Assembly: GCA_026027325.1 (NCBI GenBank)
Contig: JAMSLZ010000023.1
Coordinates: 174,566 to 238,565, forward strand
Direction of reading: 5' to 3'
From: Actinomucor elegans
Lineage: Eukaryota > Mucoromycota > Mucoromycetes > Mucorales > Mucoraceae
DNA: 64,000 nucleotides
Below, in pieces: positions 18,191 through 44,717 of this stretch. Below the pieces are notes generated by a model. That model had not been told where the DNA came from. It was given only the letters and a program-made list of their open reading frames with translations, and made no database searches. Within the stretch, counting starts at the first letter, position 1. Each line of letters begins with the position of its first letter. The position numbers and the translations under genes were made by a program.

Positions 18191-19662
18191 TACGCCCTAT
18201 GGGCAGAACCAGAGGACTTGGAAGGCTTGGGGGCCTTAATCGAAGAACTACCAGAAGTCTTGGTTACGTTCGCAATGTTCTTTTTCAAAAAATCAATCTT
18301 GTTCTGAGTAGAAGAGTTGACCTTGGACAAATTCAACATCTCCTTAGGACTATCCACCTTCATTCCAACACCAGAAGCAAAAGGAGCATGCTTCGAAGCC
18401 AATGAACCGTACGGACTGTTGGGATTGTACTTTGAATTCACGCCGGAAGACAAAGGAGCACCCTCACCGGTTTCGGTCATCACCACATCTTGATCACCAG
18501 CATCATCACCAGCACCAACACCAGAGTCACCACCAGCACCAACACCAGCACCAACACCAGCACCAACACCAGCACCAACACCAGCACCAACACCAGCACC
18601 AACACCAGAGTCACCACCAGCACCAACAAAGGACACACCAGAAGATTCCGGAACCTCGTCCTGATCAGCCAAATCAACTGTAGCTTCCTCAACCACTACG
18701 TTATCTTCCATTGACTTGGAATCAGAACCAGTTCTCATATCATCAGACAAAGCAACATATTCATCAAGCTCTACCTCAAAAGGCTTCACCTTGGACTTCT
18801 TCACTTTACAAAAACGTGCAGTATGGCCATGCTCTTGGCAAGAGAAACACCTGCGCTTGGCCAATTCAGGGCAGTCCTTCCGAACATGACCTGAACGGCG
18901 ACAGAAGTGACACACAGGAGGAGCATTCTTGTACTGAGCGGGAGCAAAGTTGTCCCAGGCACTCATGTAGAGCATTCTTGAAAGCGGCTGAGGAGGAACC
19001 ACCTCACCATCCTCATTCTTCATACCCACAGAAGTATCAAGCAACACCGACATCTTGCCCTCGAAATACCCTTTGCTGGTAAACTTTTTCAATTGGTACA
19101 CCTTACCATAAAAAGCCAAAGAGTCAAGCAAGTCAACTAAGAATGTATCCTCATTGGGAATAGCATTGAGCAGCGTAAACTGCACATGGGTTAAACTATT
19201 TCCCACGGAAGCACCAGAACCAGAAGACGTTGAAACAGCCTTGTAGACAATACCATTCACCATAATACCAGAACCAACAGCCTTGAGAGCATCAGCCTTC
19301 AGCCTGAAAGTTGCTTCCACCAGAAGGTCACCACCAGCAGTTTTGCCCCAAGCACTAATAGGCCTAAACTGTACCTTACTATCAATTTGGTCTTGAATCG
19401 CCTTGTAAGCAGCAAAACGATCAGGAAACAACTTTCCAGGGAAAGAGAACAAAACAGAACCAGAAGAGAGAGCTTGCTCCACCAAAGCAGCAGCCTTGCG
19501 GACCAAGATTTCAGATTTAAGGTCATCATCTTCGAAAATGACCTCACCAACAAGAGGAATTGCGGAATTGTCGACATTACGTCGACCAGGAGTAACAAGT
19601 ACCTTCTTAGAGGCACCACGAGCAACAATAGTTGTCCAGGACACGGCAGAATTTTCGGTCAT
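18190..19662 (-). CDS. LINE-2 ORF1 (family B)
   Basis: 490 residues, complete. The N-terminus MTENSAVSWTT is common to all ORF1s here. Knuckles are CHFCRRSGHVRKDC and CFSCQEHGHTARFC. Downstream is a long Gly-Val-Gly-Ala repeat, expanded relative to the LINE-5 copy (474 residues), then a conserved YNPNSPYG segment and a Lys/Ser-rich tail. The stop codon overlaps the ORF2 start by one base (TAATG). ORF1 is expected to bind its own RNA; the Gly-rich part is probably disordered (inference). Confidence 0.92.
   Translation of the reverse strand: MTENSAVSWTTIVARGASKKVLVTPGRRNVDNSAIPLVGEVIFEDDDLKSEILVRKAAALVEQALSSGSVLFSFPGKLFPDRFAAYKAIQDQIDSKVQFRPISAWGKTAGGDLLVEATFRLKADALKAVGSGIMVNGIVYKAVSTSSGSGASVGNSLTHVQFTLLNAIPNEDTFLVDLLDSLAFYGKVYQLKKFTSKGYFEGKMSVLLDTSVGMKNEDGEVVPPQPLSRMLYMSAWDNFAPAQYKNAPPVCHFCRRSGHVRKDCPELAKRRCFSCQEHGHTARFCKVKKSKVKPFEVELDEYVALSDDMRTGSDSKSMEDNVVVEEATVDLADQDEVPESSGVSFVGAGGDSGVGAGVGAGVGAGVGAGVGAGVGAGGDSGVGAGDDAGDQDVVMTETGEGAPLSSGVNSKYNPNSPYGSLASKHAPFASGVGMKVDSPKEMLNLSKVNSSTQNKIDFLKKNIANVTKTSGSSSIKAPKPSKSSGSAHRA
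18525..18625. repeat. 12-bp coding minisatellite in LINE-2 ORF1
   Basis: Tandem ACCAACACCAGC units (plus strand) encode alternating Gly-Val-Gly-Ala on the minus strand. The LINE-5 ORF1 has far fewer units at the same place, so copy number changes in steps that keep the frame. Direct 12-bp repeats without unique spacers are not CRISPR. Confidence 0.9.
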
Positions 19663-19877
19663 GTACCAGAATTCTCAAAATTGAGGAGATTGAGCAAAAA
19701 AGTTTTTGAAATGTCGAAATTGGCGAATTGAGATGTCAAGATCGAGCAAAATGTGCAAAAAGTTGGAGATGTGCAAAAATAATTATACCACCAGAAGCGC
19801 AGCGACGAGTAGAATACGAATACGAAACAAGCGGAGATGGATGGATTGAATTGAGCGAGATATTGACAAAAAACCAG

Positions 19878-19934
19878 ACCGCCTCGAAAGACTTCACTGC
19901 TTGTTTCTTAACCTATTTTTTGTAAAAAGTGATC
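19878..19934 (-). repeat. 5' filler of LINE-2 with an ORF1-derived piece
   Basis: Between the common 5' block of LINE-2 and the poly(A) tail of LINE-3 lies a piece of ORF1 coding sequence (plus strand GCCTCGAAAGACTTCACTGC), then TTTTTTGTAAAAAGTGATC from the usual LINE 5' end. The two parts are out of their normal order, which points to template switching during reverse transcription. Confidence 0.75.
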
Positions 19935-20013
19935 TTTTTTTTTTTTTTTTTTTTTTGTATTAAATGTAATTTATTAATCTTAAAGTGGTATTACAAAGCT
20001 AAGTTACAAATTA

Positions 20014-23000
20014 CTAATCTAATGTTGTGCTAGTAGACTCATCAGGAGTTTTACTATCTAAGAAAGTGGTGATAACAAGGCTGTTATCTGTCTTGAAGGA
20101 ATTGAGGACCCAAGCTGAGGACCAAGTATCATCATGAATAACACATCGCCAATGTGCAGCCCATAGGGTATAGAAGATCGAACCCAAAATGGAAAGCACA
20201 TCCACATCAAGCGGCTTGCAATCTAGACTACATAGAGTGACCAGTGCAGCCCAGATGTTCGCGTCACAGGGAAAGTCTTCATCCAAGGAGAGGAAAACAA
20301 GAGCTTGACGCCAGTAGTCGGATTTATGAGGACAACCGACAGCAAAATGGTACAAGTCCTCATTAGCACCGCAAAGAACACAGAAAGGAGAAGGAAACTG
20401 CTGAGGAGACCAGCGATTCACCCGAGAGCGGTAACCAATCTTGTCATGGAGCAGCCTCCACCAGGGAGTGAAAGCCTTGGCTACCATAGGAAGAGACCAA
20501 AACAAACGCCAAAAGAAAGGACGCAAAAGCAAGTGAGACGCCACAGCCAAAGGAGGACCAGGACGAGCGGAAACAACAGAGTGATCAGCGTGCCAGAAGC
20601 GACGCAAGACACCAAGAGGGAGTTTGGCAACAGATACCACCGAAGAGGGACCAGAAGGGACAGTCCAATGACGGGTCGATGGCATCCAGGAAGAAGCACC
20701 AGTGCGAGAAACAGGAAGAGCACGCTGTTCATCGTAAGTGAAAGCAACTTTGGACCTAATCACCGGAGGGAGAGCCAGAGAAACAGGACCAAAAGGAGGA
20801 CTTAAACCATAATAAACCGACTTGACATGGCTGGAACTTGGCAGAGCCTTATTGGAGAACAGGGTACCAGAGTGAATGTTCCAGTGGAATATGTCAGACA
20901 TGAGATACTTGGGAGCAACAGACGAAGGAACAAAACCAGGAGACAGATCATGAGCAACACCAGGAACAGAAGACACCACACAGCACAAAGGAAGATCCAG
21001 GAACCACCGAGAAGACCAAGAAGAATGCACCACCAAAGGAGGCAGCCGAACCAGAAGCTTGGTTAGATGATCCAGGGTTGGAATGCTATTCAACCGAGGC
21101 TTGAATCGGGATGGATACATCAACCAAGGGAGAACCGAAGAATGACCAGAATAGGCTTGAAAGCAGAACACCAACCAGGGAGACACAAAATCCGAAGACA
21201 CCAGAGGACGAAGCAGACGTTGAACATACACAAGATGCAAAGCAAAGCTCTGATCTTGTATGTCCACCAGACCAACACCACCATACTTGCGAGGAAGACA
21301 CAAAGAAGACCAAGACGGCGCGGGCCAAAACGATGCCACATACTTGCGCACTACTGCCTTGATATCCAGAAGCCACTTGCCAGGCACAGGAACCACACGA
21401 AGAAGATGATACACCTTGGAGAGCAACAGAGAATTCGCCACCAGACCAGTACCACGAATAGACAGGTGTCGTTCACGAAGCATGTTTGCATGCCTCTCCA
21501 ACTTGACTTTGACACCATCCAGGAAATGCAGCAACTGAGCATCGGTATGATACAGTGGATAACCAAGGTAACGCACCGAGCCAATAGACGACGAATCATG
21601 CCACTCTACACCAGCAGCAGAAGCTATATCAACCCAAGGCTGATGAGCCACACCAGAAAGAGACACCAGAACAGTCTTGCTGAGATTCACCTTGGCGTTG
21701 GAGGCACGACCATAGACCTCAAGAAGAGACAGAAGCACCAACCATTCACCAGGCGAAGACAAGAACACCTCGAGATCATCGGCATAACTGAGAAGCTTGA
21801 TAGGCGCCGGAGGAGAAGAACCACTGACGAAATCAAGCGGGTAGTTACCCGTATCATCACCCAAATCAAGATGGACCTTTTGAGGGTTAGGGAGCCAAGT
21901 CCGAGGAACCACCACAGGAGCCAGAGAAACACCAGACAGAGAAGAACAAGCCAAGACAGACCGCAACAGGGGTTCAAAAGCCAAGTTGAACAACAGAGGT
22001 GATAGTGGATCACCCTGCCTAAGGCCACGCAACTGAGGAACAGCTGCTCCTAACCACCCGTTAATGGACACGGAGATCTTGGTACCAAAGAACAAAGAAG
22101 AGAGACAACCAACCAGACCAGAAGGAAAACCAAAACGAAGCAACACACGCCGAAGATACTCAGGATGGACCCGATCATACGCCTTCTCTTGATCAAGTAA
22201 CACCGCAACTTGAGGAAGGTTTGGAGCCACCGACCGAAGATTAGCCATCAACGTTTGATTCAACCACCCATTATCCGAGATCAATCGATGAGGAAGGAAC
22301 CCAGTTTGATAGGGGTTGATCAGCTTTGGAAGAACACGGTTGAACCTATTGGCCAGCAACTTGGTAAACAACTTGGCATCCGAGTTGATCAGAGAGAGAG
22401 GACGCCAGTTAGCCAAGAGCAGAGGATCACCTTTCTTGAACAAAAGCACCATCCGAGTTTGTTGCCACGAAGGAGGAAACACACCAGAGAAAGCACCACC
22501 AAGGACTGCCACCAGCAAGTCCAGAAAAGGTCGCGAACGACCAGCCAAGTAATGATATACCTCGAAAGGAATACCATCCATGCCAGGAGACCGAGACCTA
22601 GGGGCGTGAGCCAGTAGATCCAGCACCGTAACGGCATTAGGCAGAGCCATCAGATACTTGACATCATCCGAAGACAACACCACTTCTTCAGGAATACCAT
22701 TCAAAAGAGAGTCCACGGCTTCGGCATCGATGTCGTCCGGGGTGTATAGCTTTTGGTAAAAACCGCGAGCCTCCCGAAGTATATCAGCCGCTTCCACCAA
22801 GACCTCACCAGTAGTAGAGCACTTCAAGGACTGGATTGTCTGTTGAGACTGGCGATCCTTGATGACACGATAGAAATACTTGTTGTTACGTTCACCCAGT
22901 TCATGCCAACGAGTGGCAGAGCGAAGCATATTCTGGCGTGTTTCTTTCTGAATCTGACCATCAATCAATTTCTCTAGCTCATGCACCACCTGAAGAGGAA

Positions 23001-24066
23001 GTGAATCATCACTAGGTTGAATTGACGGTGTAGCATCACTAGCCATAACACCTGAGACAGAAGAGGAAACAGCCTTCATACGTTCCTGTTGTAAAGCAGC
23101 AACCTTGTTCTTGAATCGAGCCTTAGCACCCCAAGCGTACTTTTGCGCACAGCACTTGAGCAACAACTTGAAAGATTCCCATTGAGATTGGACCCTCAAA
23201 GGTTCACCCTTACCACCAGAGCTAGCATTGTCACCATCACCACCAGAAGATTCGAAAAAGAGAGACACCGTCTTGTCCAGCAATAGGAGAAACTCTGAAT
23301 CCTCCAGCAGAGTGGGATTAAAGCGCCAACAGCCAGGACCAATACGAGCACAAGCAGGCTGCAGATCGATTGTCAGAAGACAGTGATCGGTCCACACACC
23401 AGGAACATAATGGACTTGACCATTCACCAACCGAGTCACCAGAGAAGTATGACCAAAGATATAATCAATAGTAGTACCAGCCCTAGGAAAAGTAATAGGA
23501 CCGTCCGGGAAACAGTTGTTAAAGTGGAGGCGAAGCCAATCATACAGCGGAGCCACAGAGGAAAGACTTGTCTCGGCAGAAGAGTGCAGATGAATGTTGA
23601 AGTCACCTACCAACATCCAAGGCGTGTTGGACACCTCAGACCACAAAGCAAGAGAGAGAAAAGATTGTATAAACAGTGGACGGTCCGAAGACTGTGCCGG
23701 TGCATAGATATTGGCCACACGACACAAGACATTATGCTGGGCATCCTTGACAGTAGCCACAACACAACGCTCATCCAGGAGAACTTGAGTAGCATCCAAA
23801 GAAAGACCAGGCTTGAGGCAGACAATGGCACAATGTTTGGACACCACAAAGGGACAGCGAGGAAAGAAGAAAGAGAAAGAGCGGATTTGATGATCAGTGA
23901 GAGAAGATTGAGAATAGAAGTGAGATACCTCTTGCAAGCAAAGGATATCCACACCGAGAGAACGAGCGCGTAGGTAAGAAGCGAACTCCTTTTGTGCTGT
24001 TTTTTGGGACTCCATAAAAATGCTACGCACATTTAAGGAACCCAATCGAATGTTTTGACCTAGCAT
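20014..24066 (-). CDS. LINE-3 ORF2: endonuclease and reverse transcriptase
   Basis: 1,350 residues, uninterrupted. The N-terminal APE-like endonuclease carries Glu46 in CLQEVSH, GDFN at about 154-157 and TDH at about 226-228. The reverse transcriptase has motif A Asp at about 625 (LLDQEKAYDRV), motif B RGLRQGDPLSPLL and YADD at about 761-764. A CCHC zinc motif lies at about 1229-1245. The enzyme nicks target DNA and primes cDNA synthesis on its own mRNA. Start choice: the ATG inside TAATG overlapping the ORF1 stop, giving the LGSLNVRS motif directly. It differs from LINE-4 ORF2 at only a handful of residues. All catalytic residues are present, so it is potentially active. Confidence 0.95.
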   Translation of the reverse strand: MLGQNIRLGSLNVRSIFMESQKTAQKEFASYLRARSLGVDILCLQEVSHFYSQSSLTDHQIRSFSFFFPRCPFVVSKHCAIVCLKPGLSLDATQVLLDERCVVATVKDAQHNVLCRVANIYAPAQSSDRPLFIQSFLSLALWSEVSNTPWMLVGDFNIHLHSSAETSLSSVAPLYDWLRLHFNNCFPDGPITFPRAGTTIDYIFGHTSLVTRLVNGQVHYVPGVWTDHCLLTIDLQPACARIGPGCWRFNPTLLEDSEFLLLLDKTVSLFFESSGGDGDNASSGGKGEPLRVQSQWESFKLLLKCCAQKYAWGAKARFKNKVAALQQERMKAVSSSVSGVMASDATPSIQPSDDSLPLQVVHELEKLIDGQIQKETRQNMLRSATRWHELGERNNKYFYRVIKDRQSQQTIQSLKCSTTGEVLVEAADILREARGFYQKLYTPDDIDAEAVDSLLNGIPEEVVLSSDDVKYLMALPNAVTVLDLLAHAPRSRSPGMDGIPFEVYHYLAGRSRPFLDLLVAVLGGAFSGVFPPSWQQTRMVLLFKKGDPLLLANWRPLSLINSDAKLFTKLLANRFNRVLPKLINPYQTGFLPHRLISDNGWLNQTLMANLRSVAPNLPQVAVLLDQEKAYDRVHPEYLRRVLLRFGFPSGLVGCLSSLFFGTKISVSINGWLGAAVPQLRGLRQGDPLSPLLFNLAFEPLLRSVLACSSLSGVSLAPVVVPRTWLPNPQKVHLDLGDDTGNYPLDFVSGSSPPAPIKLLSYADDLEVFLSSPGEWLVLLSLLEVYGRASNAKVNLSKTVLVSLSGVAHQPWVDIASAAGVEWHDSSSIGSVRYLGYPLYHTDAQLLHFLDGVKVKLERHANMLRERHLSIRGTGLVANSLLLSKVYHLLRVVPVPGKWLLDIKAVVRKYVASFWPAPSWSSLCLPRKYGGVGLVDIQDQSFALHLVYVQRLLRPLVSSDFVSPWLVFCFQAYSGHSSVLPWLMYPSRFKPRLNSIPTLDHLTKLLVRLPPLVVHSSWSSRWFLDLPLCCVVSSVPGVAHDLSPGFVPSSVAPKYLMSDIFHWNIHSGTLFSNKALPSSSHVKSVYYGLSPPFGPVSLALPPVIRSKVAFTYDEQRALPVSRTGASSWMPSTRHWTVPSGPSSVVSVAKLPLGVLRRFWHADHSVVSARPGPPLAVASHLLLRPFFWRLFWSLPMVAKAFTPWWRLLHDKIGYRSRVNRWSPQQFPSPFCVLCGANEDLYHFAVGCPHKSDYWRQALVFLSLDEDFPCDANIWAALVTLCSLDCKPLDVDVLSILGSIFYTLWAAHWRCVIHDDTWSSAWVLNSFKTDNSLVITTFLDSKTPDESTSTTLD

Positions 24067-25532
24067 TATACCCTATGGGCAGAAGAAGAAGACTTGGAAG
24101 ACTTGGACGTCTTGATAGCAGAAGCAGAAGCCTTGGTCTTCGCCACATTCACAATGTTCTTTTTAAGAAAGTCAATCTTGTTTTGAGTTTTGACCTTGAC
24201 TTTGCTTAAATCCATCATCTCTTGCACCGTATCAACCTTCATAGTTGAAGCAACCTCGTAGTCAGCAAACTTGGAAGCTCGAGCACCAGTAGGACTGTTG
24301 GGATCGTACTCTACTCTCTCGCCAGAGAGCAGAGGATCACCCTCACCATCGAGCTCCATGACTTCAATGATTGAGTCATCACCAGGAACACCACCAGAGA
24401 CACCACCAGCAACACCAGAGGCAACACCAGAGACACCAGAGACACCACCAGCAACACCAGAGGCAACACCAGAGACACCAGAGATACCACCAGAGACACC
24501 AACCAAGGGCTCAGAATCGCCCTCCTGCTCAACCAGTTCAATAGGAGCCTCTTCAACAACTACAACATCATCTTTTGGCGTAGGGTCAAGGCCAGATTTC
24601 TTTGCACCAGACAAAGCCACATAATCGTCCAGTTCAGCCTCGAAAGACTTCACTGCTTGCTTCTTGACCTTGCAGAACCTAGCCGTATGGCCTTTCTCGC
24701 GACAAGAGAAACACGTACGCTTAGCCAACTCAGGACAGTCCTTACGAACATGTCCTGACAAACGACAAAAGTGACAAACAGGGGGCGCATTCTTGAACTG
24801 GGCAGGGGCAAACATGTCCCAAGCACTCAGGTACAGCATTCTTGTCAAAGGCTGAGGAGGAACCACCTCACCATCCTCACCTTCCATGCCTACCGACGTA
24901 TCAATGAGCACCGACATCTTGCCCTCGAAATAGCCTTTGTGGGTATACTTCTTCAACTGGTATACCTTACCATAGAAGGCCAAAGAATCCAACATGTCCA
25001 CCAAAAAGGTAGCTCTGTTCGGAGTACAACATAGCAAATTAAACTGAACATGGGTCAGATTACCACCCACAGAAGAGCCAGAGCCAGAAGCAGCAGAAGT
25101 CGATACGGCCTTGTACACCACACCATTGACAACAACACCATCATTAACGGCCTTGGTAGCATCATCCTTAGCGTCAAAATTGGCTTCAACAAGAAGGTCA
25201 CCACCAGCATTAGCGCGCATGGAACTAATGTGTCTAAAATCCACATTAGTATCAATTTGTTCTTCTATGACCTTATAGGCACCAGTGCGGTCACCAAACA
25301 GCTTCCCAGGGAAGGAGAACAGAACAGAACTTGAGCAAAGCGCCTGCTCCACCAGAGCAGCGGCTTTGCGCACCAAAAGTTCGGACTTGAGGTCATCATC
25401 TTCAAAGATGACCTCACCAACAAGAGGAACAGCAGCATTGTCGACATTACGTCGACCAGGAGTCAATGGAACCTTCTTGGAGGCACCACGGGCAACAACA
25501 GTCGTCCAGGACACGGCAGAATTTTCAGTCAT
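24066..25532 (-). CDS. LINE-3 ORF1
   Basis: 488 residues from MTENSAVSW. The frame is also open 38 codons upstream to 25646, but that part is the conserved 5' UTR of other copies, so the downstream Met is preferred. Two CCHC knuckles (CHFCRLSGHVRKDC, CFSCREKGHTARFC) sit in the middle. A Gly-Val-Ser repeat near 24385-24510 is longer than in LINE-4. The C-terminus is Lys/Ser-rich. It ends in TATAATG, sharing one base with the ORF2 start. Confidence 0.93.
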   Translation of the reverse strand: MTENSAVSWTTVVARGASKKVPLTPGRRNVDNAAVPLVGEVIFEDDDLKSELLVRKAAALVEQALCSSSVLFSFPGKLFGDRTGAYKVIEEQIDTNVDFRHISSMRANAGGDLLVEANFDAKDDATKAVNDGVVVNGVVYKAVSTSAASGSGSSVGGNLTHVQFNLLCCTPNRATFLVDMLDSLAFYGKVYQLKKYTHKGYFEGKMSVLIDTSVGMEGEDGEVVPPQPLTRMLYLSAWDMFAPAQFKNAPPVCHFCRLSGHVRKDCPELAKRTCFSCREKGHTARFCKVKKQAVKSFEAELDDYVALSGAKKSGLDPTPKDDVVVVEEAPIELVEQEGDSEPLVGVSGGISGVSGVASGVAGGVSGVSGVASGVAGGVSGGVPGDDSIIEVMELDGEGDPLLSGERVEYDPNSPTGARASKFADYEVASTMKVDTVQEMMDLSKVKVKTQNKIDFLKKNIVNVAKTKASASAIKTSKSSKSSSSAHRV

Positions 25533-25811
25533 GTGCCAGATTTCTTGAAATTGGCGAGATTGTGAGAAAAAGTTTTTAAGATGTCGAAATTGGCGAATTG
25601 AGATGTCAAGATCGAGCGAAATGTGCAAAAAGTTGGAGATGTGCAAAAATAATTATACCACCAGAAGCGCAGCGACGAGTAGAATACGAATACGAAACAA
25701 GCGGAGATGGATGGATTGAATTGAGCGAGATATCGACAAAAAACCAGACGGATGCAAAATTTTTTGTAAAAAGTGATCTTTAAGCTAAAAAGTGATCTTT
25801 AAGCGGTACCT

Positions 25812-26202
25812 TAAAAACGTTTATACACCGAAGCTCATACAAAAAAAAAGGTTTATACTCCGAAGCGCACATACTCTCGAAACACTTACCTTTCCCATAT
25901 TACCTTTCCCTCATATTACCTTTCCCATATACGTAACCTCAGCAGAAAGTTGAAAAATTAAAAAATGAAACAACACATTTACAACTTATGCAGAGACAGT
26001 GTTGTTTACAAGCTTTCACTGATATATGATCAGCAATAAGTTGGAGTAATATTTTGTATATTGTAAAACATTTGTTATAAGACATATTTTAATATGTAAA
26101 AGTTATAATTATATATCATAAATAATATTTATTACTAATAATTCTATTGTAAAAACGTTATATTTACCATTCAAATCTATAACTAATGACAAAAAATAAT
26201 AA
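25812..26202. other. LINE-free AT-rich core between divergent arrays (candidate centromere core)
   Basis: About 390 bases with no LINE sequence and no gene, lying exactly where the minus-strand and plus-strand arrays meet head to head. The left part (25812-25935) has higher GC and short direct repeats: two copies of a TTTATAC.CCGAAGC unit (about 25820 and 25851) and three TTACCTTTCCC units. The right part (25940-26202) is strongly AT-rich, with an ACATATT-TT-AATATGT hairpin at 26082-26097. TAAAAACGTT occurs at both edges (25812-25821 and 26150-26159). The layout, an AT-rich tract beside a short motif inside LINE arrays, matches what is described for Mucor mosaic centromeres; function is inferred. 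Confidence 0.6.
25886..25929 (+). repeat. Three tandem TTACCTTTCCC units in the core
   Basis: Units of 14, 16 and 14 bases (TTACCTTTCCCATA, with TC inserted in the middle one). I see this sequence nowhere else in the window. It is the most motif-like part of the core and a natural candidate for a protein binding site. Confidence 0.9.
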
Positions 26203-26435
26203 TGGCACTTTCGCTTAAAGATCACTACTGGTTTTTGTCAATATCTCGCTCAATTCAATTCATCCATCTCCAAAAGATCACTTTTTTTACAAAAAATTTT
26301 GCATCCGTCTGGTTTTTTGTCGAGGCTCTTTCAAGGCTCTTTCGCTTAAAGATCACTTTTTACAAAAAAAAAAAAAAAAAATACAAAAAATACAAAAAAA
26401 AAAAAAAACTTTTTACAAAAATTTTGCATCCGTCT

Positions 26436-26466
<31 letters not shown>

Positions 26467-26468
26467 GT
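26203..26468 (+). repeat. Shattered LINE 5' ends and homopolymer tracts
   Basis: Several incomplete copies of the LINE 5' terminus lie in series: a GCTTAAAGATCACTACTGG piece followed by GTCAATATCTCGCTC (26203-26271); an AAAAGATCAC...GTCTGG piece with GAGGCTCTTTC (26272-26330); then CTTAAAGATCAC with long A-runs interrupted by ATAC (26345-26410); then a 5' piece ending in a long T-run (26411-26466). No ORF1 or ORF2 body is present. It looks like a stack of extremely short insertions or filler DNA. Open frames here are low-complexity only. Confidence 0.8.
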
Positions 26469-26732
26469 CAAGGCTCTTTCGCTTAAAGATCACTTTTTAC
26501 AAAAAATTTTGCATCCGTCTGGTTTTTTGTCGATATCTCGCTCAATTCAATCCATCCATCTCCGCTTGTTTCGTATTCGTATTCTACTCGTCGCTGCGCT
26601 TCTGGTGGTATAATTATTTTTGCACATCTCCAACTTTTTGCACATTTCGCTCGATCTTGACATCTCAATTCGCCAATTTCGACATTTCAAAAACTTTTTT
26701 CTCAATCTCGCCAATTTCAAGAAATCTGGCAC

Positions 26733-28160
26733 ATGACTGAAAATTCTTCCGTGTCCTGGACGACTGTTGTTGCCCGTGGTGCCTCTAAGAAGGTTCCATT
26801 GACTCCTGGTCGACGTAATGTCGACAATGCTGCTGTTCCTCTTATTGGTGAGGTCATCTTTGAAGATGATGACCTCAAGTCCGAACTTTTGGTGCGCAAA
26901 GCCGCTGCTCTGGTGGAGCAGGCGCTTTGCTCAAGTTCTGTTCTGTTCTCCTTCCCTGGGAAGCTGTTTGGTGACCGCACTGGTGCCTATAAGGTCATAG
27001 AAGAACAAATTGGTACTAATGTGGATTTTAGACACATTAGTTCCATGCGCGCAAATGCTGGTGGTGACCTTCTTGTTGAAGCCAATTTTGACGCTAAGGA
27101 TGATGCTACCAAGGCCGTTAATGATGGTGTTGTTGTCAACGGTGTGGTGTACAAGGCTGTATCGACTTCTACTGGTTCTGGCTCTGGCTCTTCTGTGGGT
27201 GGTAATCTGACCCAAGTTCAGTTTAATTTGGTGTGTTGTACTCCGAACAGAGCTACCTTTTTGGTGGACATGTTGGATTCTTTGGCCTTCTATGGTAAGG
27301 TATACCAGTTGAAGAAGTATACCCACAAAGGCTATTTCGAGGGCAAGATGTCGGTGCTCATTGATACGTCGGTAGGCATGGAAGGTGAGGATGGTGAGGT
27401 GGTTCCTCCTCAGCCTTTGACAAGAATGCTGTACCTGAGTGCTTGGGACATGTTTGCCCCTGCTCAGTTCAAGAATGCGCCCCCTGTTTGTCACTTTTGT
27501 CGTTTGTCAGGACATGTTCGTAAGGACTGTCCTGAGTTGGCTAAGCGTACGTGTTTCTCTTGTCGCGAGAAAGGCCATACGGCTAGGTTCTGCAAGGTTA
27601 AGAAACAAGCAGTGAAGTCTTTCGAGGCTGAACTGGACGATTATGTGGCTTTGTCTGGTGCAAAGAAATCTGGCCTTGATCCTACGCCAAAAGATGATGT
27701 TGTAGTTGTTGAAGAGGCTCCCATTGAACTGGTTGAGCAGGATGGCGATTCTGAGCCCTTGGTTGGTGTCTCTGGTGGTATCTCTGGTGTTGTCTCTGGT
27801 GTCTCTGGTGGTGTCTCTGGTGGTGTCTCCGGTGGTGTTCCTGGTGATGACTCAATCATTGAAGTCATGGAGCTCGATGGTGAGGGTGATCCTCTGCTCT
27901 CTGGCGAGAGAGTAGAGTACGATCCCAACAGTCCTACTGGTGCTCGAGCTTCCAAGTTTGCTGACTACGAGGTTGCCTCAACTATGAAGGTTGATACGGT
28001 GCAAGAGATGATGGATTTGAGTAAAGTCAAGGTCAAAACTCAAAACAAGATTGACTTTCTCAAGAAGAATATTGTGAATGTGGCGAAGACCAAGGCTTCT
28101 GCTTCTGCTATCAAGACGTCCAAGTCTTCCAAGTCTTCTTCTTCTGCCCATAGGGTATAA
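26733..28160 (+). CDS. LINE-4 ORF1
   Basis: 475 residues. Order: conserved N-terminus MTENSSVSWTT; a central region (GGNLTQVQFN...SLAFYGKVYQLKKY) that may be RRM-like; CCHC knuckle 1 at 253-266 and knuckle 2 at 274-287; an acidic Val-rich linker; a short Gly-Val-Ser repeat; and a C-terminal Lys/Ser tail that could contact RNA. It is the upstream cistron of a bicistronic mRNA; its TAA overlaps the ORF2 ATG by one base. A near-twin of LINE-3 ORF1 except for the repeat length. Confidence 0.95.
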   Translation: MTENSSVSWTTVVARGASKKVPLTPGRRNVDNAAVPLIGEVIFEDDDLKSELLVRKAAALVEQALCSSSVLFSFPGKLFGDRTGAYKVIEEQIGTNVDFRHISSMRANAGGDLLVEANFDAKDDATKAVNDGVVVNGVVYKAVSTSTGSGSGSSVGGNLTQVQFNLVCCTPNRATFLVDMLDSLAFYGKVYQLKKYTHKGYFEGKMSVLIDTSVGMEGEDGEVVPPQPLTRMLYLSAWDMFAPAQFKNAPPVCHFCRLSGHVRKDCPELAKRTCFSCREKGHTARFCKVKKQAVKSFEAELDDYVALSGAKKSGLDPTPKDDVVVVEEAPIELVEQDGDSEPLVGVSGGISGVVSGVSGGVSGGVSGGVPGDDSIIEVMELDGEGDPLLSGERVEYDPNSPTGARASKFADYEVASTMKVDTVQEMMDLSKVKVKTQNKIDFLKKNIVNVAKTKASASAIKTSKSSKSSSSAHRV

Positions 28161-28162
28161 TG
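28158..28162 (+). promoter_or_regulatory. TAATG stop-start overlap, ORF1/ORF2
   Basis: The ORF1 stop and ORF2 start share one base. The same five bases join ORF1 and ORF2 at 4830-4834 and 18186-18190 (minus), 24062-24066 (minus), 33920-33924, 48832-48836 and 61641-61645 (minus). Conservation in both families argues for coupled termination-reinitiation, the mechanism reported for the UAAUG of the silkworm LINE SART1. The sequence around it is also strongly conserved. Confidence 0.85.
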
Positions 28163-31100
28163 CTAGGTCAAAACATTCGATTGGGTTCCTTAAATGTGCG
28201 TAGCATTTTTATGGAGTCCCAAAAAACTACACAAAAGGAGTTCGCTTCTTACCTACGCGCTCGTTCTCTTGGTGTGGATATCCTTTGCTTGCAAGAGGTA
28301 TCTCACTTCTATTCTCAATCTTCTCTCACTGATCATCAAATCCGCTCTTTCTCTTTCTTCTTTCCTCGCTGTCCCTTTGTGGTGTCCAAACATTGTGCCA
28401 TTGTCTGTCTCAAGCCTGGTCTTTCTTTGGATGCTACTCAAGTTCTCCTGGATGAGCGTTGTGTTGTGGCTACTGTCAAGGATGCCCAGCATAATGTCTT
28501 GTGTCGTGTGGCCAATATCTATGCACCGGCACAGTCTTCGGACCGTCCACTGTTTATACAATCTTTTCTCTCTCTTGCTTTGTGGTCTGAGGTGTCCAAC
28601 ACGCCTTGGATGTTGGTAGGTGACTTCAACATTCATCTGCACTCTTCTGCCGAGACAAGTCTTTCCTCTGTGGCTCCGCTGTATGATTGGCTTCGTCTCC
28701 ACTTTAACAACTGTTTCCCGGACGGTCCTATTACTTTTCCTAGGGCTGGTACTACTATTGATTATATCTTTGGTCATACTTCGCTGGTGACTCGGTTGGT
28801 GAATGGTCAAGTCCATTATGTTCCTGGTGTGTGGACCGATCACTGTCTTTTGACAATCGATCTGCAGCCTGCTTGTGCTCGTATTGGTCCTGGCTGTTGG
28901 CGCTTTAATCCCACTCTGCTGGAGGATTCAGAGTTTCTCCTATTGCTGGACAAGACGGTGTCTCTCTTTTTCGAATCTTCTGGTGGTGATGGTGACAATG
29001 CTAGCCCTGGTGGTAAGGGTGAACCTTTGAGGGTCCAATCTCAATGGGAATCCTTCAAGTTGTTGCTCAAGTGCTGTGCGCAAAAGTACGCTTGGGGTGC
29101 TAAGGCTCGATTCAAGAACAAGGTTGCTGCTTTACAACAGGAACGTATGAAGGCTGTTTCCTCTTCTGTCTCAGGTATTATGGCTAGTGATGCTACACCG
29201 TCAATTCAACCTAGTGATGATTCACTTCCTCTTCAGGTGGTGCATGAGCTAGAGAAATTGATTGATGGTCAGATTCAGAAAGAAACACGCCAGAATATGC
29301 TTCGCTCTGCCACTCGTTGGCATGAACTGGGTGAACGTAACAACAAGTATTTCTATCGTGTCATCAAGGATCGCCAGTCTCAACAGACAATCCAGTCCTT
29401 GAAGTGCTCTACTACTGGTGAGGTCTTGGTGGAAGCGGCTGATATACTTCGGGAGGCTCGCGGTTTTTACCAAAAGCTATACACCCCGGACGACATCGAT
29501 GCCGAAGCCGTGGACTCTCTTTTGAATGGTATTCCTGAAGATTTGGTGTTGTCTTCGGATGATGCCAAGTATCTGATGGCTCTGCCTAATGCCGTTACGG
29601 TGCTGGATCTACTGGCTCACGCCCCTAGATCTCGGTCTCCTGGCATGGATGGTATTCCTTTCGAGGTATATCATTACTTGGCTGGTCGTTCGCGACCATT
29701 TCTGGACTTGCTGGTGGCAGTCCTTGGTGGTGCTTTCTCTGGTGTGTTCCCTCCTTCGTGGCAACAAACTCGGATGGTGCTTTTGTTCAAGAAAGGTGAT
29801 CCTCTGCTCTTGGCTAACTGGCGTCCTCTCTCTCTGATCAACTCGGATGCCAAGTTGTTTACCAAGTTGCTGGCCAATAGGTTCAACCGTGTTCTTCCCA
29901 AGCTGATCAACCCCTATCAAACTGGGTTCCTTCCTCATCGATTGATCTCGGATAATGGGTGGTTGAATCAAACGTTGATGGCTAATCTTCGGTCGGTGGC
30001 TCCAAACCTTCCTCAAGTTGCGGTGTTACTTGATCAAGAGAAGGCTTATGATCGGGTCCATCCTGAGTATCTTCGGCGTGTGTTGCTTCGTTTTGGTTTT
30101 CCTTCTGGTCTGGTTGGTTGTCTCTCTTCTTTGTTCTTTGGTACCAAGATCTCCGTGTCCATTAACGGGTGGTTAGGAGCAGCTGTTCCTCAGTTGCGTG
30201 GCCTTAGGCAGGGTGATCCACTATCACCTCTGTTGTTCAACTTGGCCTTTGAACCCCTGTTGCGGTCTGTCTTGGCTTGTTCTTCTCTGTCTGGTGTTTC
30301 TCTGGCTCCTGTGGTGGTTCCTCGGACTTGGCTCCCTAACCCTCAAAAGGTCCATCTTGATTTGGGTGATGATACGGGTAACTACCCGCTTGATTTTGTC
30401 AGTGGTTCTTCTCCTCCGGCTCCTATCAAGCTTCTCAGTTATGCCGATGATCTCGAGGTGTTCTTGTCTTCGCCTGGTGAATGGTTGGTGCTTCTGTCTC
30501 TTCTTGAGGTCTATGGTCGTGCCTCCAACGCCAAGGTGAATCTCAGCAAGACTGTTCTGGTGTCTCTTTCTGGTGTGGCTCATCAGCCTTGGGTTGATAT
30601 AGCTTCTGCTGCTGGTGTAGAGTGGCATGATTCGTCGTCTGTTGGCTCGGTGCGTTACCTTGGTTATCCACTGTATCATACCGATGCTCAGTTACTGCAT
30701 TTCCTGGATGGTGTCAAAGTCAAGTTGGAGAGGCATGCAAACATGCTTCGTGAACGACACCTGTCAATTCGTGGTACTGGTCTGGTGGCGAATTCGCTGT
30801 TGCTTTCTAAGGTGTATCATCTTCTCCGTGTGGTTCCTGTGCCTGGCAAGTGGCTTCTGGATATCAAGGCAGTAGTGCGCAAGTATGTGGCATCGTTTTG
30901 GCCCGCGCCGTCTTGGTCTTCTTTGTGTCTTCCTCGCAAGTATGGTGGTGTTGGTCTGGTGGACATCCAAGATCAGAGCTTTGCTTTGCATCTTGTGTAT
31001 GTTCAACGTCTGCTTCGTCCTCTGGTGTCTTCGGATTTTGTGTCTCCCTGGTTGGTGTTCTGCTTTCAAGCCTATTCTGGTCATTCTTCGGTTCTCCCTT

Positions 31101-32212
31101 GGTTGATGTATCCATCTCGATTCAAGCCTCGGTTGAATAGCATTCCAACCCTGGATCATCTAACCAAGCTTCTGGTTCGGCTGCCTCCTTTGGTGGTGCA
31201 TTCTTCTTGGTCTTCTCGGTGGTTTCTGGATCTTCCTTTGTGCTGTGTGGTGTCTTCTGTTCCTGGTGTTGCTCATGATCTGTCTCCTGGTTTTGTTCCT
31301 TCGTCTGTTGCTCCCAAGTATCTCATGTCTGACATATTCCACTGGAATATTCACTCTGGTACCCTGTTCTCCAATAAGGCTCTGCCAAGTTCCAGCCATG
31401 TCAAGTCGGTTTATTATGGTTTAAGTCCTCCTTTTGGTCCTGTTTCTCTGGCTCTCCCTCCGGTGATTAGGTCCAAAGTTGCTTTCACTTATGATGAACA
31501 GCGTGCTCTTCCTGTGTCTCGTTCTGGTGCTTCTTCCTGGATGCCATCGACCCGTCATTGGACTGTTCCTTCTGGTCCCTCTTCGGTGGTATCTGTTGCC
31601 AAACTCCCTCTTGGTGTCTTGCGTCGCTTCTGGCACGCTGATCACTCTGTTGTTTCTGCTCGTCCTGGTCCTCCTTTGGCTGTGGCTTCTCACTTGCTTT
31701 TGCGTCCTTTCTTTTGGCGTTTGTTTTGGTCCCTCCCCATGGTGGCCAAGGCTTTCACTCCCTGGTGGCGCCTGCTTCACGACAAGATTGGCTATCGCTC
31801 TCGGGTGAATCGCTGGTCTCCTCAGCAGTTTCCTTCTCCTTTCTGTGTTCTCTGCGGTGCTAATGAAGACTTGTACCATTTTGCTGTCGGTTGCCCGCAA
31901 AAGTCCGACTACTGGCGTCAAGCTCTTGTTTTCCTCTCCTTGGATGAAGACTTTCCCTGTGACGCGAACATCTGGGCTGCACTGGTCACTCTATGTAGTC
32001 TAGATTGCAAGCCGCTTGATGTGGATGTGCTTTCCATTTTGGGTTCGATCTTCTATACCCTATGGGCTGCACATTGGCGATGTGTTATTCATGATGATAC
32101 TTGGTCCTCAGCTTGGGTCCTCAATTCCTTCAAGACAGATAACAGCCTTGTTATCACCACTTTCTTAGATAGTAGAACTCCTGATGAGTCTACTAGCACA
32201 ACATTAGATTAG
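28160..32212 (+). CDS. LINE-4 ORF2: endonuclease and reverse transcriptase
   Basis: 1,350 residues, no stop or frameshift. Endonuclease: Asn12 in SLNVRS, Glu46 in CLQEVSH, Asp155 and Asn157 in GDFN, TIDYIFG, and Asp227-His228 in TDH. Reverse transcriptase: NWRPLSLINSD, Asp625 in LLDQEKAYDRV, RGLRQGDPLSPLLFN, Asp763-Asp764 in YADD, NLSKTVLVSL and VRYLGYPLY. C-terminal CCHC: Cys1229, Cys1232, His1240, Cys1245. No RNase H domain was seen. This architecture fits the L1 group and the Grem-LINE1 type. The full set of catalytic residues makes this copy potentially mobile. Confidence 0.96.
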   Translation: MLGQNIRLGSLNVRSIFMESQKTTQKEFASYLRARSLGVDILCLQEVSHFYSQSSLTDHQIRSFSFFFPRCPFVVSKHCAIVCLKPGLSLDATQVLLDERCVVATVKDAQHNVLCRVANIYAPAQSSDRPLFIQSFLSLALWSEVSNTPWMLVGDFNIHLHSSAETSLSSVAPLYDWLRLHFNNCFPDGPITFPRAGTTIDYIFGHTSLVTRLVNGQVHYVPGVWTDHCLLTIDLQPACARIGPGCWRFNPTLLEDSEFLLLLDKTVSLFFESSGGDGDNASPGGKGEPLRVQSQWESFKLLLKCCAQKYAWGAKARFKNKVAALQQERMKAVSSSVSGIMASDATPSIQPSDDSLPLQVVHELEKLIDGQIQKETRQNMLRSATRWHELGERNNKYFYRVIKDRQSQQTIQSLKCSTTGEVLVEAADILREARGFYQKLYTPDDIDAEAVDSLLNGIPEDLVLSSDDAKYLMALPNAVTVLDLLAHAPRSRSPGMDGIPFEVYHYLAGRSRPFLDLLVAVLGGAFSGVFPPSWQQTRMVLLFKKGDPLLLANWRPLSLINSDAKLFTKLLANRFNRVLPKLINPYQTGFLPHRLISDNGWLNQTLMANLRSVAPNLPQVAVLLDQEKAYDRVHPEYLRRVLLRFGFPSGLVGCLSSLFFGTKISVSINGWLGAAVPQLRGLRQGDPLSPLLFNLAFEPLLRSVLACSSLSGVSLAPVVVPRTWLPNPQKVHLDLGDDTGNYPLDFVSGSSPPAPIKLLSYADDLEVFLSSPGEWLVLLSLLEVYGRASNAKVNLSKTVLVSLSGVAHQPWVDIASAAGVEWHDSSSVGSVRYLGYPLYHTDAQLLHFLDGVKVKLERHANMLRERHLSIRGTGLVANSLLLSKVYHLLRVVPVPGKWLLDIKAVVRKYVASFWPAPSWSSLCLPRKYGGVGLVDIQDQSFALHLVYVQRLLRPLVSSDFVSPWLVFCFQAYSGHSSVLPWLMYPSRFKPRLNSIPTLDHLTKLLVRLPPLVVHSSWSSRWFLDLPLCCVVSSVPGVAHDLSPGFVPSSVAPKYLMSDIFHWNIHSGTLFSNKALPSSSHVKSVYYGLSPPFGPVSLALPPVIRSKVAFTYDEQRALPVSRSGASSWMPSTRHWTVPSGPSSVVSVAKLPLGVLRRFWHADHSVVSARPGPPLAVASHLLLRPFFWRLFWSLPMVAKAFTPWWRLLHDKIGYRSRVNRWSPQQFPSPFCVLCGANEDLYHFAVGCPQKSDYWRQALVFLSLDEDFPCDANIWAALVTLCSLDCKPLDVDVLSILGSIFYTLWAAHWRCVIHDDTWSSAWVLNSFKTDNSLVITTFLDSRTPDESTSTTLD

Positions 32213-32250
32213 TAATTTGTAATTTAGCTTTGTAAAACCACTTTAAGATC

Positions 32251-32256
32251 AATAAA
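32251..32256 (+). terminator. LINE-4 polyadenylation signal
   Basis: AATAAA 14 bases before the A-run at 32270. Family-A LINEs have the same hexamer or a close variant at this place (for example 55071-55076 in LINE-6); family B has AATAAA in the context GTTAATAAAGTTACACTTC. Confidence 0.8.
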
Positions 32257-32497
32257 TTACATTTAATACAAAAAAAAAAAGTCTGGTTTTTTGTCGATAT
32301 CTCGCTCAATTCAATCCATCCATCTCCGCTTGTTTCGTATTCGTCTTCTACTCGTCGCTGCGCTTCTGGTGGTATAATTATTTTTGCAAATCTCCAACAT
32401 CTTCTACATTTCGCTCGATCTTGACATCTCAATTCGCCAATTTCGACATTTCAAAAACTTTTTTGCTCAATCTCCTCAATTTTGAGAATTCTGGTAC

Positions 32498-33922
32498 ATG
32501 ACCGAAAATTCTGCCGTGTCCTGGACAACTATTGTTGCTCGTGGTGCCTCTAAGAAGGTACTTGTTACTCCTGGTCGACGTAATGTCGACAATTCTGCAA
32601 TTCCTCTTGTTGGTGAGGTCATTTTCGAAGATGATGACCTTAAATCTGAAATCTTGGTTCGCAAGGCTGCTGCTTTGGTGGAGCAAGCTCTCTCTTCTGG
32701 TTCTGTTTTGTTCTCTTTCCCTGGAAAGTTGTTTCCTGATCGTTTTGCTGCTTACAAGGCGATTCAAGACCAAATCGATAGTAAGGTGCAGTTTAGGCCT
32801 ATTAGTGCTTGGGGCAAAACTGCTGGTGGTGACCTTCTGGTGGAAGCAACTTTCAGGCTGAAGGCTGATGCTCTCAAGGCTGTTGGTTCTGGTATTATGG
32901 TAAATGGTATTGTCTACAAGGCCGTTTCAACTTCTTCTGGTTCTGGTGCTTCCGTGGGAAATAGTTTGACCCATGTGCAGTTTACACTGCTCAATGCTAT
33001 TCCCAATGAGGATACCTTCCTGGTGGACTTGCTTGACTCTTTGGCTTTTTATGGTAAGGTGTACCAATTGAAAAAGTTTACTAGCAAAGGGTATTTCGAG
33101 GGCAAGATGTCGGTGTTGCTTGATACTTCTGTGGGTATGAAGAATGAGGATGGTGAGGTGGTTCCTCCTCAACCTTTGTCAAGAATGCTCTACATGAGTG
33201 CGTGGGACAACTTTGCTCCCGCTCAGTACAAGAATGCTCCTCCTGTGTGTCACTTTTGTCGCCGTTCGGGTCATGTCCGCAAGGACTGCCCTGAATTGGC
33301 CAAGCGCAGGTGTTTCTCTTGCCAAGAGCATGGCCATACTGCGCGTTTTTGTAAAGTGAAGAAGTCCAAGGTGAAGCCGTTTGAGGTCGAACTTGATGAA
33401 TATGTTGCTCTGTCTGGTGATATGAGAACTGGTTCTGATTCCAAGTCAATGGAAGATAACGTAGTGGTTGAGGAAGCTACAGTTGATTTGGCTGATCAGG
33501 ACGAGGTTCCGGAATCTTCTGGTGTGTCCTTTGTTGGTGCTGGTGGTGACTCTGGTGTTGATGCTGGTGTTGGTGCTGGTGGTGACTCTGGTGTTGGTGC
33601 TGGTGATGATGCTGGTGATCAAGATGTGGTGATGACCGAAACCGGTGAGGGTGCTCCTTTGTCTTCCGGCGTGAATTCAAAGTACAATCCCAACAGTCCG
33701 TACGGTTCATTGGCTTCGAAGCATGCTCCTTTTGCTTCTGGTGTTGGAATGAAGGTGGATAGTCCTAAGGAGATGCTGAATTTGTCCAAGGTCAACTCTT
33801 CTACTCAGAACAAGATTGATTTTTTGAAAAAGAACATTGCGAACGTAACCAAGACTTCTGGTAGCTCTTCGATCAAGGCCCCCAAGCCTTCCAAGTCCTC
33901 TGGTTCTGCCCATAGGGCGTAA
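32498..33922 (+). CDS. LINE-5 ORF1 (family B)
   Basis: 474 residues, complete, with knuckles CHFCRRSGHVRKDC and CFSCQEHGHTARFC. Nearly identical to LINE-2 ORF1 except that the Gly-Val-Gly-Ala repeat is much shorter (about 33535-33610). It ends GCGTAATG, sharing a base with ORF2. Role as for the other ORF1 proteins: RNA-binding partner of ORF2. Confidence 0.93.
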   Translation: MTENSAVSWTTIVARGASKKVLVTPGRRNVDNSAIPLVGEVIFEDDDLKSEILVRKAAALVEQALSSGSVLFSFPGKLFPDRFAAYKAIQDQIDSKVQFRPISAWGKTAGGDLLVEATFRLKADALKAVGSGIMVNGIVYKAVSTSSGSGASVGNSLTHVQFTLLNAIPNEDTFLVDLLDSLAFYGKVYQLKKFTSKGYFEGKMSVLLDTSVGMKNEDGEVVPPQPLSRMLYMSAWDNFAPAQYKNAPPVCHFCRRSGHVRKDCPELAKRRCFSCQEHGHTARFCKVKKSKVKPFEVELDEYVALSGDMRTGSDSKSMEDNVVVEEATVDLADQDEVPESSGVSFVGAGGDSGVDAGVGAGGDSGVGAGDDAGDQDVVMTETGEGAPLSSGVNSKYNPNSPYGSLASKHAPFASGVGMKVDSPKEMLNLSKVNSSTQNKIDFLKKNIANVTKTSGSSSIKAPKPSKSSGSAHRA

Positions 33923-36900: not shown

Positions 36901-37134
36901 AAGGGTGTGCCTGTGGTTTCTCACTTGGTGGAGTTGCTTTCTCGGTTGCCTCCTCTGGTCGTGTCGGAAAGTTGGTCTCCTCGCTGGTTTTTGGATCTTC
37001 CTCTTTGTTCTGTGGTATCGCCTTGCGAGAATCCTCTGGGTAAGCCTCCTCCTCTGGATCCTGCTGCCCTGGCTCCAAGGTATTTGCTCTCGGACTTGTG
37101 TTTCTGGATTCCTCATCTCGGTGTGGTCTCTGCT
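33922..37134 (+). pseudogene. LINE-5 ORF2, N-terminal and RT part, cut by CACTA-2
   Basis: Open from MLGSHIRIGSLNVRS through the endonuclease and the whole reverse transcriptase (LLDQEKAYDRV, RGLRQGDPLSPLL, SYADDLEV) to ...PHLGVVSA, where CACTA-2 begins. About nine codons of transposon follow before a stop. The product would lack the C-terminal zinc motif. The reading frame resumes perfectly at 46173, so CACTA-2 is the only lesion. Confidence 0.93.
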
Positions 37135-37154
37135 CACTATGGCGAAAAAATTGG
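37135..37154 (+). repeat. CACTA-2 left terminal inverted repeat
   Basis: CACTATGGCGAAAAAATTGG. Its first 14 bases equal those of CACTA-1. From here to about 37320 the motif GCCAAT/ATTGGC with TATGCC recurs many times in both orientations. Confidence 0.94.
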
Positions 37155-38523
37155 CTGCTAATATGCCAAAATGGGCAGGTAAACTGCCAATTTTTACTTA
37201 TAATGCCTTGGCTGTTTTAATGCAGTAAAAAATTTTCAAATAGCCAATAAAGGCATATTAATAGCCAAGGAAACTGGCAGAAAATATGCCATTATGGGCA
37301 TATTAGTAGCCAATACTCTCATTTTCAGTCTGCCAAATGGTACCATTAATGAATTGAAATATACGTATATACGTTTATGAAAATAATTATATTTTAATAA
37401 TAATATTGATTTTATTACTTTTTCTTTCATTAGATCAAATAGTATAGTATAAAATATATAGTATAAAGCATATATAGTATAAAGCATATATAGTATAAAG
37501 CATATATAGTATAAAGCATATATAGTATAAAGCATATATAAAGGTAAAATATACCTGCTATATAGTAATATATATCCAGGAAAAATATCAACATAGCAAT
37601 CAACTTACCGTTACCAGTCCTTTAATAAACGCACAAGAGTAGTCATTCATACAGAAAAATAAAAGGCAAAGTGACAAAAGCAACTAAACACCGGTTATAT
37701 TAGTCATTATTATGAAGGATAACTTATAAATCTTTGATAAAACTAACCTCAAACCAATCAAACGAACAAATTACTCAATCATCTACTGCTGCAACTATTC
37801 AAAAAGGAAGATGGTTAGACTAATAAAGCCTAAAGTATATACCTTAACAATGTAGTAATACATACCTGTGGAGCTTGCGTCGCATAGCAACGCGTACGTA
37901 ATATACTACACTCGACAATAGTACATTTAGAAAATAACAAGGCAAAGTTGATCCTATATATGTAAAAGAAAGAAAGAAAGAAAATAACAATGAGTAATTC
38001 AGCGAGCAATGAATTGTAAAAAGAAACATACCAAAGTCAAACAAATGCAGCCTCTAAAAAGAAAACACGTTAGAAAACAATAATGTTCGTCATTCTAAAA
38101 CATGAAAACAATACCTTAAGCAAATATATCAAGAAATGAAGTATGCTGAGCCTAGGTAGCCATAAATACAGAAAAAGAGACAGAGCTAAGAAGAACTACT
38201 ACTAAAAAATAAAGCTAACCATTAGAAACAATACAATTCTATCAAAAATGAATAATATACACTTAAAAAAAAAAGAAAGCATACACACCAAAGCGTCGTA
38301 AAAGGGGGCCTTTACTGAAAGAAAAGACAAAAGGCAAATATATGCTGCTGCTTTTTAGGTAGGCTATCGAGTTCATTAGTATACTTGTTTAAATAAAAGA
38401 AATGAAAAGAAATAAAAAAGTGAAAACATGACGAAAAAACTACAACACTCAAAGGCTAAAATGGACGCGTCATTGGCATTCAGCCAATTAAAAAGGACTA
38501 AAGTAGACTTTTATTGTTTTCTT
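37155..38523. other. CACTA-2 left subterminal and non-coding region
   Basis: Subterminal repeats to about 37320, then an AT-rich stretch with a 16-bp tandem repeat, then featureless AT-rich DNA downstream of the accessory gene. Open frames over 37236-37535 and 37844-38044 are products of tandem repeats or low complexity. Confidence 0.7.
37459..37540 (+). repeat. 16-bp tandem repeat AGTATAAAGCATATAT
   Basis: Five nearly perfect tandem copies. No spacer structure; a simple minisatellite within the CACTA-2 left arm. Confidence 0.93.
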
Positions 38524-43073: not shown

Positions 43074-43175
43074 AAAAAATAAAAATAAAAAAAATATAAA
43101 GTATAAGAAAAAGACTTCGTAAATAAAAATACGAAATAAAACCTCTTTTACACCTCAGAAATTTTGACCTTTGCC

Positions 43176-44658: not shown

Positions 44659-44717
44659 GTAATATTTTCGGAATAAATATCAATGTTGAAAAAAATATTA
44701 CAATATTAAATACAACT

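Follow-up and report, generated by a model that had tools for sequence, protein, structure and literature searches.

What occupies the roughly 390 bases that lie, in the fungal genome studied here, at the point where two LINE arrays diverge? The question reaches beyond one locus, for fungi without CENP-A need another way of marking their centromeres, and the absence of CENP-A has been reported for Mucorales (PMC9089191; this and the other articles given by PMC number are cited from the portions of their text available to us). For Mucor, a core of about 1 kb with a 41-bp motif is described (PMC9089191), as are an AT-rich 200-bp core beside the motif and a retrotransposon-rich pericentromere (PMC10977804), and a motif followed by an AT-rich region has been predicted in eight Mucoromycota (PMC12925627). 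The protein that reads the Mucor motif is speculated on, and not named, in the available part of PMC9089191. An earlier note on this DNA had taken the present stretch for the equivalent of the Mucor centromere core.

The window, i.e., the whole stretch of 64,000 nucleotides analysed, lies at the very end of contig C16, which is 238,565 bp long and belongs to a genome of 36.5 Mb and 27 contigs. The core within the window (25808-26203) consists of a conserved element, a 41-bp block of three units and an AT-rich tract. At the core edge stands a first copy of the element (ACCTTAAAAACGTTTATACACCGAAGC, 25808-25834, plus strand), followed by the tail of a 5'-truncated LINE, TCATAC(A)9 and one further base (25835-25850, plus strand), which sits inside the element, and by a second copy, GTTTATACTCCGAAGC (25851-25866, plus strand), a target-site duplication of 25819-25834 with one mismatch. 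The full form of the element reads ACCTTAAAAACGTTTATAC[AT]CCGAAGC, the part duplicated in the C16 core owing to the insertion being GTTTATAC[AT]CCGAAGC. The block (25886-25926, plus strand) is made of three TTACCTTTCCC units, at 25886-25896, 25900-25910 and 25916-25926, whose combined span is exactly 41 bp; TRF called 25886-25930 as a tandem repeat of period 14 (score 72), and the window contains the unit pair (spacing 6, at most three mismatches) a single time, while 100 dinucleotide shuffles never produced it. Next to it lies the unstranded AT-rich tract (25927-26203), with a GC fraction of 0.213 over 25936-26202, against 0.36 over 25812-25935 and 0.424 in the window as a whole. AT-richness as such is not unique, 3.2% of 267-bp intervals being equally AT-rich, chiefly at 43-45.5 kb and additionally at about 15.2 and 37.3 kb. 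No ORF above 53 aa (ATG, GTG or TTG start) was found inside the core stretch, and one of 94 aa begins at its edge (26202) and continues into LINE 5' UTR copies. The description given in the earlier note, some 390 bases that are AT-rich on one side and carry short tandem motifs on the other, is thus borne out by the sequence, the GC of the tract and the TRF repeat, and the stretch is indeed free of gene sequence; that it is also free of LINE sequence stands as an overall observation, but not for 25819-25866, where the duplicated element is split by a LINE tail.

The placement between outward-pointing LINEs was likewise verified. On the left, a full-length LINE on the minus strand (19946-25785; ORF2 20014-24066, ORF1 frame 24066-25646) turns its 5' end to the core, and beyond it lies a second one (15588-19879, minus strand) that belongs to the subfamily of the second LINE on the right (97.4% identity). 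On the right, the tract stops at about 26204, at the onset of LINE 5' UTR sequence: partial 5' UTR copies with A/T runs fill 26204-26479 (plus strand), with a LINE tail at 26390 after the 14-base, low-complexity repeat ACTTTTTACAAAAA, and are followed by a full-length LINE (26480-32281, plus strand; ORF1 26733-28160, ORF2 28160-32212), again with its 5' end to the core. Its poly(A) is directly abutted by a LINE of another subfamily (76%; 32281-37161, plus strand), in which the LINE match runs to 37019 and the ORF2 frame to 37161. The two core-flanking LINEs are 97.8% identical, 91 substitutions and 3 indels apart. Pfam domains of the right one are zf-CCHC in ORF1 and endonuclease, RVT_1 and zf-RVT in ORF2, and proteins of Mucor velutinosus match the reverse transcriptase region of LINE ORF2 at about 73% identity. 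The layout of two ORFs and a poly(A) tail matches the description of Grem-LINE1 in PMC7377519; among the protein matches listed for the LINE, none is named Grem-LINE1. A comparison of 11 ORFs, a subset of those in the window, with Pfam identified four LINE ORFs, two transposases (tnp2), one chromodomain and one zinc knuckle (LINE ORF1), the other three giving nothing above the cut-off. At 28160 and 33922, and in the left LINEs at 24066, 18190 and 4834, the stop codon of ORF1 shares its final base with the beginning of the ORF2 start codon, and this one-base overlap makes stop-start translational coupling in the LINE possible.

Several other features of the window deserve to be recorded. A truncated LINE with 0.3 kb of downstream flank occurs twice, inverted across the core (1-3478 and 51967-55445, 99.5% identical), which suggests a recent duplication or conversion between the pericentromere arms; within the LINE region, two elements resembling tnp2-type transposases (PF02992; 9822-12570 and 40301-43074) are also arranged as inverted copies, with 70% identity. 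The 3-kb block at 43001-46000 (GC 0.20-0.25), a candidate mobile element or chromatin-related remnant, contains a 250-bp direct repeat (43176-43425 and 45186-45434, 98.4%) and an ORF of 65 aa that encodes a chromodomain (PF00385, E 4e-8). At the extreme contig end, 46415-55099 and 55480-64000 form an 8.5-kb inverted repeat. Of its 149 indels, 119 are of 1 bp and 135 take the form of a gap on the distal side, and 34 of its 51 substitutions fall within the 1.7 kb closest to the centre; this looks like an unpolished or fold-back end, not like old divergence. The C16 contig begins with N, and telomeric CCCTAA repeats were seen at five of the 20 contig starts examined (C2, C5, C10, C15 and C18).

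Does such a core occur elsewhere in the genome? A DNA search with the C16 core found C7 (77% identity), C22 (69%) and C25 (86% over 83 bases), and unit-pair patterns brought in C3, then C1 and C5, giving seven loci in total (C1, C3, C5, C7, C16, C22 and C25), with a single locus per contig. All 11 matches of the permissive pattern TACCNTTCC-gap-ACCNTTCC lie at these seven loci, against three genome-wide for the reversed control; the exact unit-pair pattern gave nine matches at five of the seven (control 0), and the pattern with three mismatches gave ten (control 3), seven of which are the core loci. The remaining matches, on C2, C21 and C24, were discarded as chance, because the 600 bases shown around each resemble neither LINE nor AT tract. 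The pattern CGTTTATACNCCGAAGC alone, at three mismatches, was uninformative (211 matches vs 192 in the control). With the C3 core as query, the DNA search recovered the query locus and, over 79 bases, the motif block of C5 (78% alike), and with the C1 core it gave no match beyond that core. The unit-pair pattern searches detected no core on the remaining 20 of the 27 contigs, and the motif had no match in viral contigs; in published full texts, the matches listed for TACCTTTCCC or its complement look unrelated, judging by title.

On reading, each of the seven loci has the units, an AT tract and LINE ends at both sides, with two classes of motif: three units on C16, C7, C22 and C25, and two units on C3, C1 and C5. 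The gap of 6 bases separating the last two units is constant at all seven loci. C16, C7, C22 and C25 carry ACCTTAAAAACGTTTATAC[AT]CCGAAGC, which is absent from C1, C3 and C5; TATACTCC is retained in C1 and C3, and C5 is without it. In the six cores that have it, the distance from TATACTCC to the first unit is 25 (C16), 25 (C7), 28 (C22), 28 (C25), 23 (C3) and 26 bases (C1). The three TTACCTTTCCC units had been proposed beforehand as the best motif candidate, together with a search for one copy on each of the other chromosomes, and it is this unit pair that recurs, one locus on each of seven contigs and every one in LINE sequence. A motif found many times per chromosome, or once in the genome, had been named as grounds for giving up the idea, and the copy number provides none.

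The AT tract adjoins the units at every locus (7/7, GC 0.22-0.28), with automatically measured lengths of 255, 272, 289, 291, 296, 301 and 370 bp, of which the last, in C22, is over-measured and passes the LINE 5'-end marker at 273, while the 301 bp of C16 pass the marker at 277. We aligned the first 250 bp of the tracts locally and compared the scores with those of 200 doublet shuffles. The pair C16-C7 reached a z of 26, four further pairs within the three-unit class 5.9-7.9, and C22-C25 1.9, so that five of the six pairs of this class (C16, C7, C22, C25) exceeded all 200 shuffles; the 15 pairs involving C1, C3 or C5 gave z values of -0.1 to 2.3 and did not exceed all shuffles. Because the alignments fail outside the three-unit class, it is the position beside the motif, the approximate length and the AT-richness of the tract that are retained, and not its sequence.

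Two LINE searches, of which we kept the best 40 of 96 and the best 40 of 94 candidates, yielded 62 distinct places, 58 of them on the seven core contigs and no more than 143 kb from the core. In 51 of these 58 the 5' end is directed towards the core (binomial p 1.2e-9), and the same holds, within this selection, for 45 of the 51 places within 50 kb (p 9e-9) and for 27 of the 33 within 20 kb (p 1.6e-4); LINE sequence flanks both sides of the core at all seven loci. Among the exceptions to this polarity is the LINE that borders the C7 core directly on the left and meets the motif with its poly(A). An inverted arrangement of Grem-LINE1-type LINEs has already been published for M. lusitanicus (PMC8072676). 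A strict inside-out order of LINE ages was considered and is not supported, a copy on C3 about 99 kb from the core being as identical to the query as the core-adjacent copies.

The four places off the core contigs, again among the best 40 of 96 and the best 40 of 94, are on C6 (one minus, one plus, diverging), C21 (10 kb from the contig start) and C18 (about 12 kb from the contig end and about 65 kb from its telomeric start; the C5 core lies about 228 kb from such a start). The divergent copies at C6:791786-810342, near the contig end, have no core motif: LINE polarity predicted a core at their divergence point, and the permissive pattern did not find the motif there, nor near the LINEs of C21 and C18. 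These places on C6, C21 and C18 may mark further centromeres that are unassembled or diverged, and at the C6 divergence point a diverged, lost or unassembled centromere is possible.

The seven loci, each the only one on its contig, their AT tracts and the polarity of the LINEs around them support an equivalence with the Mucor centromere core, and we consider it highly probable that 25808-26203 is the core of the mosaic centromere of a mucoralean other than Mucor lusitanicus, a reading that is, from sequence, supported but not proven. A sequence-specific DNA-binding protein would read the TATACTCCGAAG element and the TTACCTTTCCC units, and the kinetochore would assemble on the adjoining AT-rich tract of 250-300 bp, the length and composition of which would matter, and its exact sequence not. 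The polar LINE arrays would in turn form a gene-poor pericentromere, probably silenced by RNAi. Weighing against this are the three cores with two units only, the C5 core without TATACTCC, the 20 of 27 contigs that have no core, and the motif-free divergence point on C6. The seven cores may also be an incomplete set, because ten cores are given for M. circinelloides genomes in PMC12925627, according to which cores are frequently found on very short contigs on account of the flanking retrotransposons.

The LINE tail inside the conserved element is found at the same place in two cores, those of C16 and C7. In C7 the element reads GTTTATACTCCGAAG-C-TCATAC(A)19-GTTTATACTCCGAAG, whereas in C16 the run is (A)9, a single base is added and the two copies differ at one position. 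A LINE subfamily in the window ends in TCATAC(A)n (...CTTCATAC(A)n), and a LINE copy on C1 has the same truncated tail within a perfect 16-bp target-site duplication. Since the second element copy stands 25 bases before the units in both C16 and C7, within the 23-28 of the uninterrupted cores, and thus keeps the normal distance (for the first copies it is 57 and 66), the predicted recognition need not suffer from the insertion. As the tracts of C16 and C7 are the most similar of all, we infer that the insertion was more likely inherited in common, a core having been copied from one chromosome to another, than acquired twice independently. Tail junctions filled 17 rows, from which we dropped 14266 (not LINE-like) and two that fall in the distal arm of the inverted repeat at the contig end, and the sample is biased to the cores, sequences beyond the window having been taken around them. 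The 14 junctions kept comprise six into LINE 5' UTR, one into ORF1, one ambiguous (19935), four that run into the core motif or up to its edge (25837, two in C7, one in C5) and two that have one other flank in common; all eight junctions entering LINE sequence are in the same sense as their target, both strands having been searched. At the C3 core, a poly(A) run abuts the core but shows no readable tail.

Such junctions invite a different explanation, namely that the block belongs to the LINE system itself, be it a non-autonomous element, a module with promoter function or a hot spot for insertion, and that LINEs carry or target it. This would account for the confinement of the block to LINE surroundings (7/7) and for the LINE tails found in or directly beside it (4 of the 14 kept junctions), but we regard it as improbable: 62 LINE places (best 40 of 96 plus best 40 of 94) face seven blocks, the block occurs once per contig, for the most part the AT tracts cannot be aligned from one core to another, and no target-site duplication was noticed, in an unsystematic look, around the block as a whole. 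Alternatively, the core could be a relic or inactive centromere, or some other landmark that each chromosome has once, for instance an origin of replication or a site of cohesin loading. The size of C16, only 238 kb, and the poor-quality inverted repeat at its end would suit a relic, but the motif is intact, the unit-proximal element copy keeps its normal distance despite the LINE tail, and full-length, near-identical LINEs stand at both sides, all of which makes this very improbable in our eyes. Finally, an artificial join of two LINE arrays, to which the breaking of assemblies at such arrays and the suspicious contig end nearby might point, has practically no chance of being the explanation, because the same motif-plus-tract structure recurs at seven places with diverged sequence, and the core-flanking LINEs, unlike the contig end, differ by 91 substitutions and 3 indels.

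Returning to the reading as a mosaic centromere, we add a tentative proposal about the LINE, in which our doubt exceeds our confidence: the LINE could be an active parasite that homes to the core and builds the pericentromere, the insertion shared by C16 and C7 showing that cores are copied between chromosomes. It would prefer kinetochore-bound DNA and the 5' UTR of its own adjacent copies (insertion into LINE 5' UTR copies has one orientation only so far), and from such preferential insertion at the core and into LINE 5' UTRs, the arrays would expand around the core with their 5' ends facing inward. Whenever the LINE strikes the recognition element, the target-site duplication would leave an intact element at normal spacing, so that the host would keep segregating, and the core would be the homing address of the LINE. 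The tail inside the element, together with its intact duplicate, connects the presumed recognition site with a selfish element and renders homing testable. Among the papers listed, Navarro-Mendoza et al. (2019) aside, no title or abstract opening told of a LINE insertion into a Mucor core, nor of a motif in two classes or a LINE tail within the element.

To which fungus does this centromere belong? A host protein on C22 is 66% identical, at a query coverage of 98%, to a protein of M. lusitanicus, 68% to one of Parasitella, 65% to one of Cokeromyces and 67% to one of Mucor saturninus, and 100% identical to one JGI-only protein. The host is thus a mucoralean and, by protein comparison, very probably not M. 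lusitanicus, identity with the reference of the latter being rejected mainly on the 66% of this protein and its full identity with the JGI-only one; on the contig presumed by its numbering to be scaffold_4, the interval scaffold_4:2351462-2357388, which PMC7377519 gives for Grem-LINE1, is LINE-free, an argument that is weak alone. A histone-fold search produced 13 matches, six of which represent four H3-like loci. Those on C24, C25 and C27 are canonical or near-canonical H3, and that on C12, judged by score alone, equals C24; one of the seven other matches was read and is H2A-like, and exons split by introns could escape this search. The H3 loci read fit the reported absence of CENP-A in Mucorales, and are no proof of it. 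The Mis12 profile search reached 18.2 bits, below the cut-off, and the CENP-C_C search gave no match, in a search that produced below-cut-off signals in 8 of 14 prokaryotic controls.

The value of the seven cores is that they separate what is retained, mostly the element, the spacing and the tract, from what varies, i.e., the tract sequence and the number of units; furthermore, they provide a bait set for finding the protein that reads the motif. The closest known counterpart is the mosaic centromere of Mucor lusitanicus, which Navarro-Mendoza et al. reportedly described in 2019. Like it, the present core has a 41-bp stretch, motif there and block here, the agreement being one of length, an AT-rich tract next to it, a Grem-LINE1-type pericentromere in inverted arrangement (51 of 58 places polar here), and H3-like loci that, where read, are not CENP-A-like. 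Unlike it, the tract measures about 255-300 bp instead of about 200 bp, there are two motif classes and a LINE tail inside the element, and the species is another one, in which the core is known from sequence alone. The predicted cores of eight Mucoromycota (PMC12925627) likewise present a motif and then a downstream AT-rich region, of a length consistent per genome; the mixed states within one genome concern tract length there and unit number (3 vs 2) here. With the point centromere of budding yeast (CDEI-CDEII-CDEIII), it would share a conserved motif and an AT-rich spacer in which length and composition, rather than sequence, are under constraint, a comparison of CDEII with the Mucoromycota tract that was made in PMC12925627 and that we mean as a functional likeness, with no claim of homology or membership; CDEII, at about 50 to nearly 200 bp (PMC12925627), is shorter than the tract here, and the present core, in contrast, is embedded in LINE arrays. 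As for the LINEs, poplar offers in Celine another LINE that accumulates at centromeres (PMC11288735), but Celine resides in CENH3 chromatin, whereas here no CENH3 is known and the arrays are polar around a short core.
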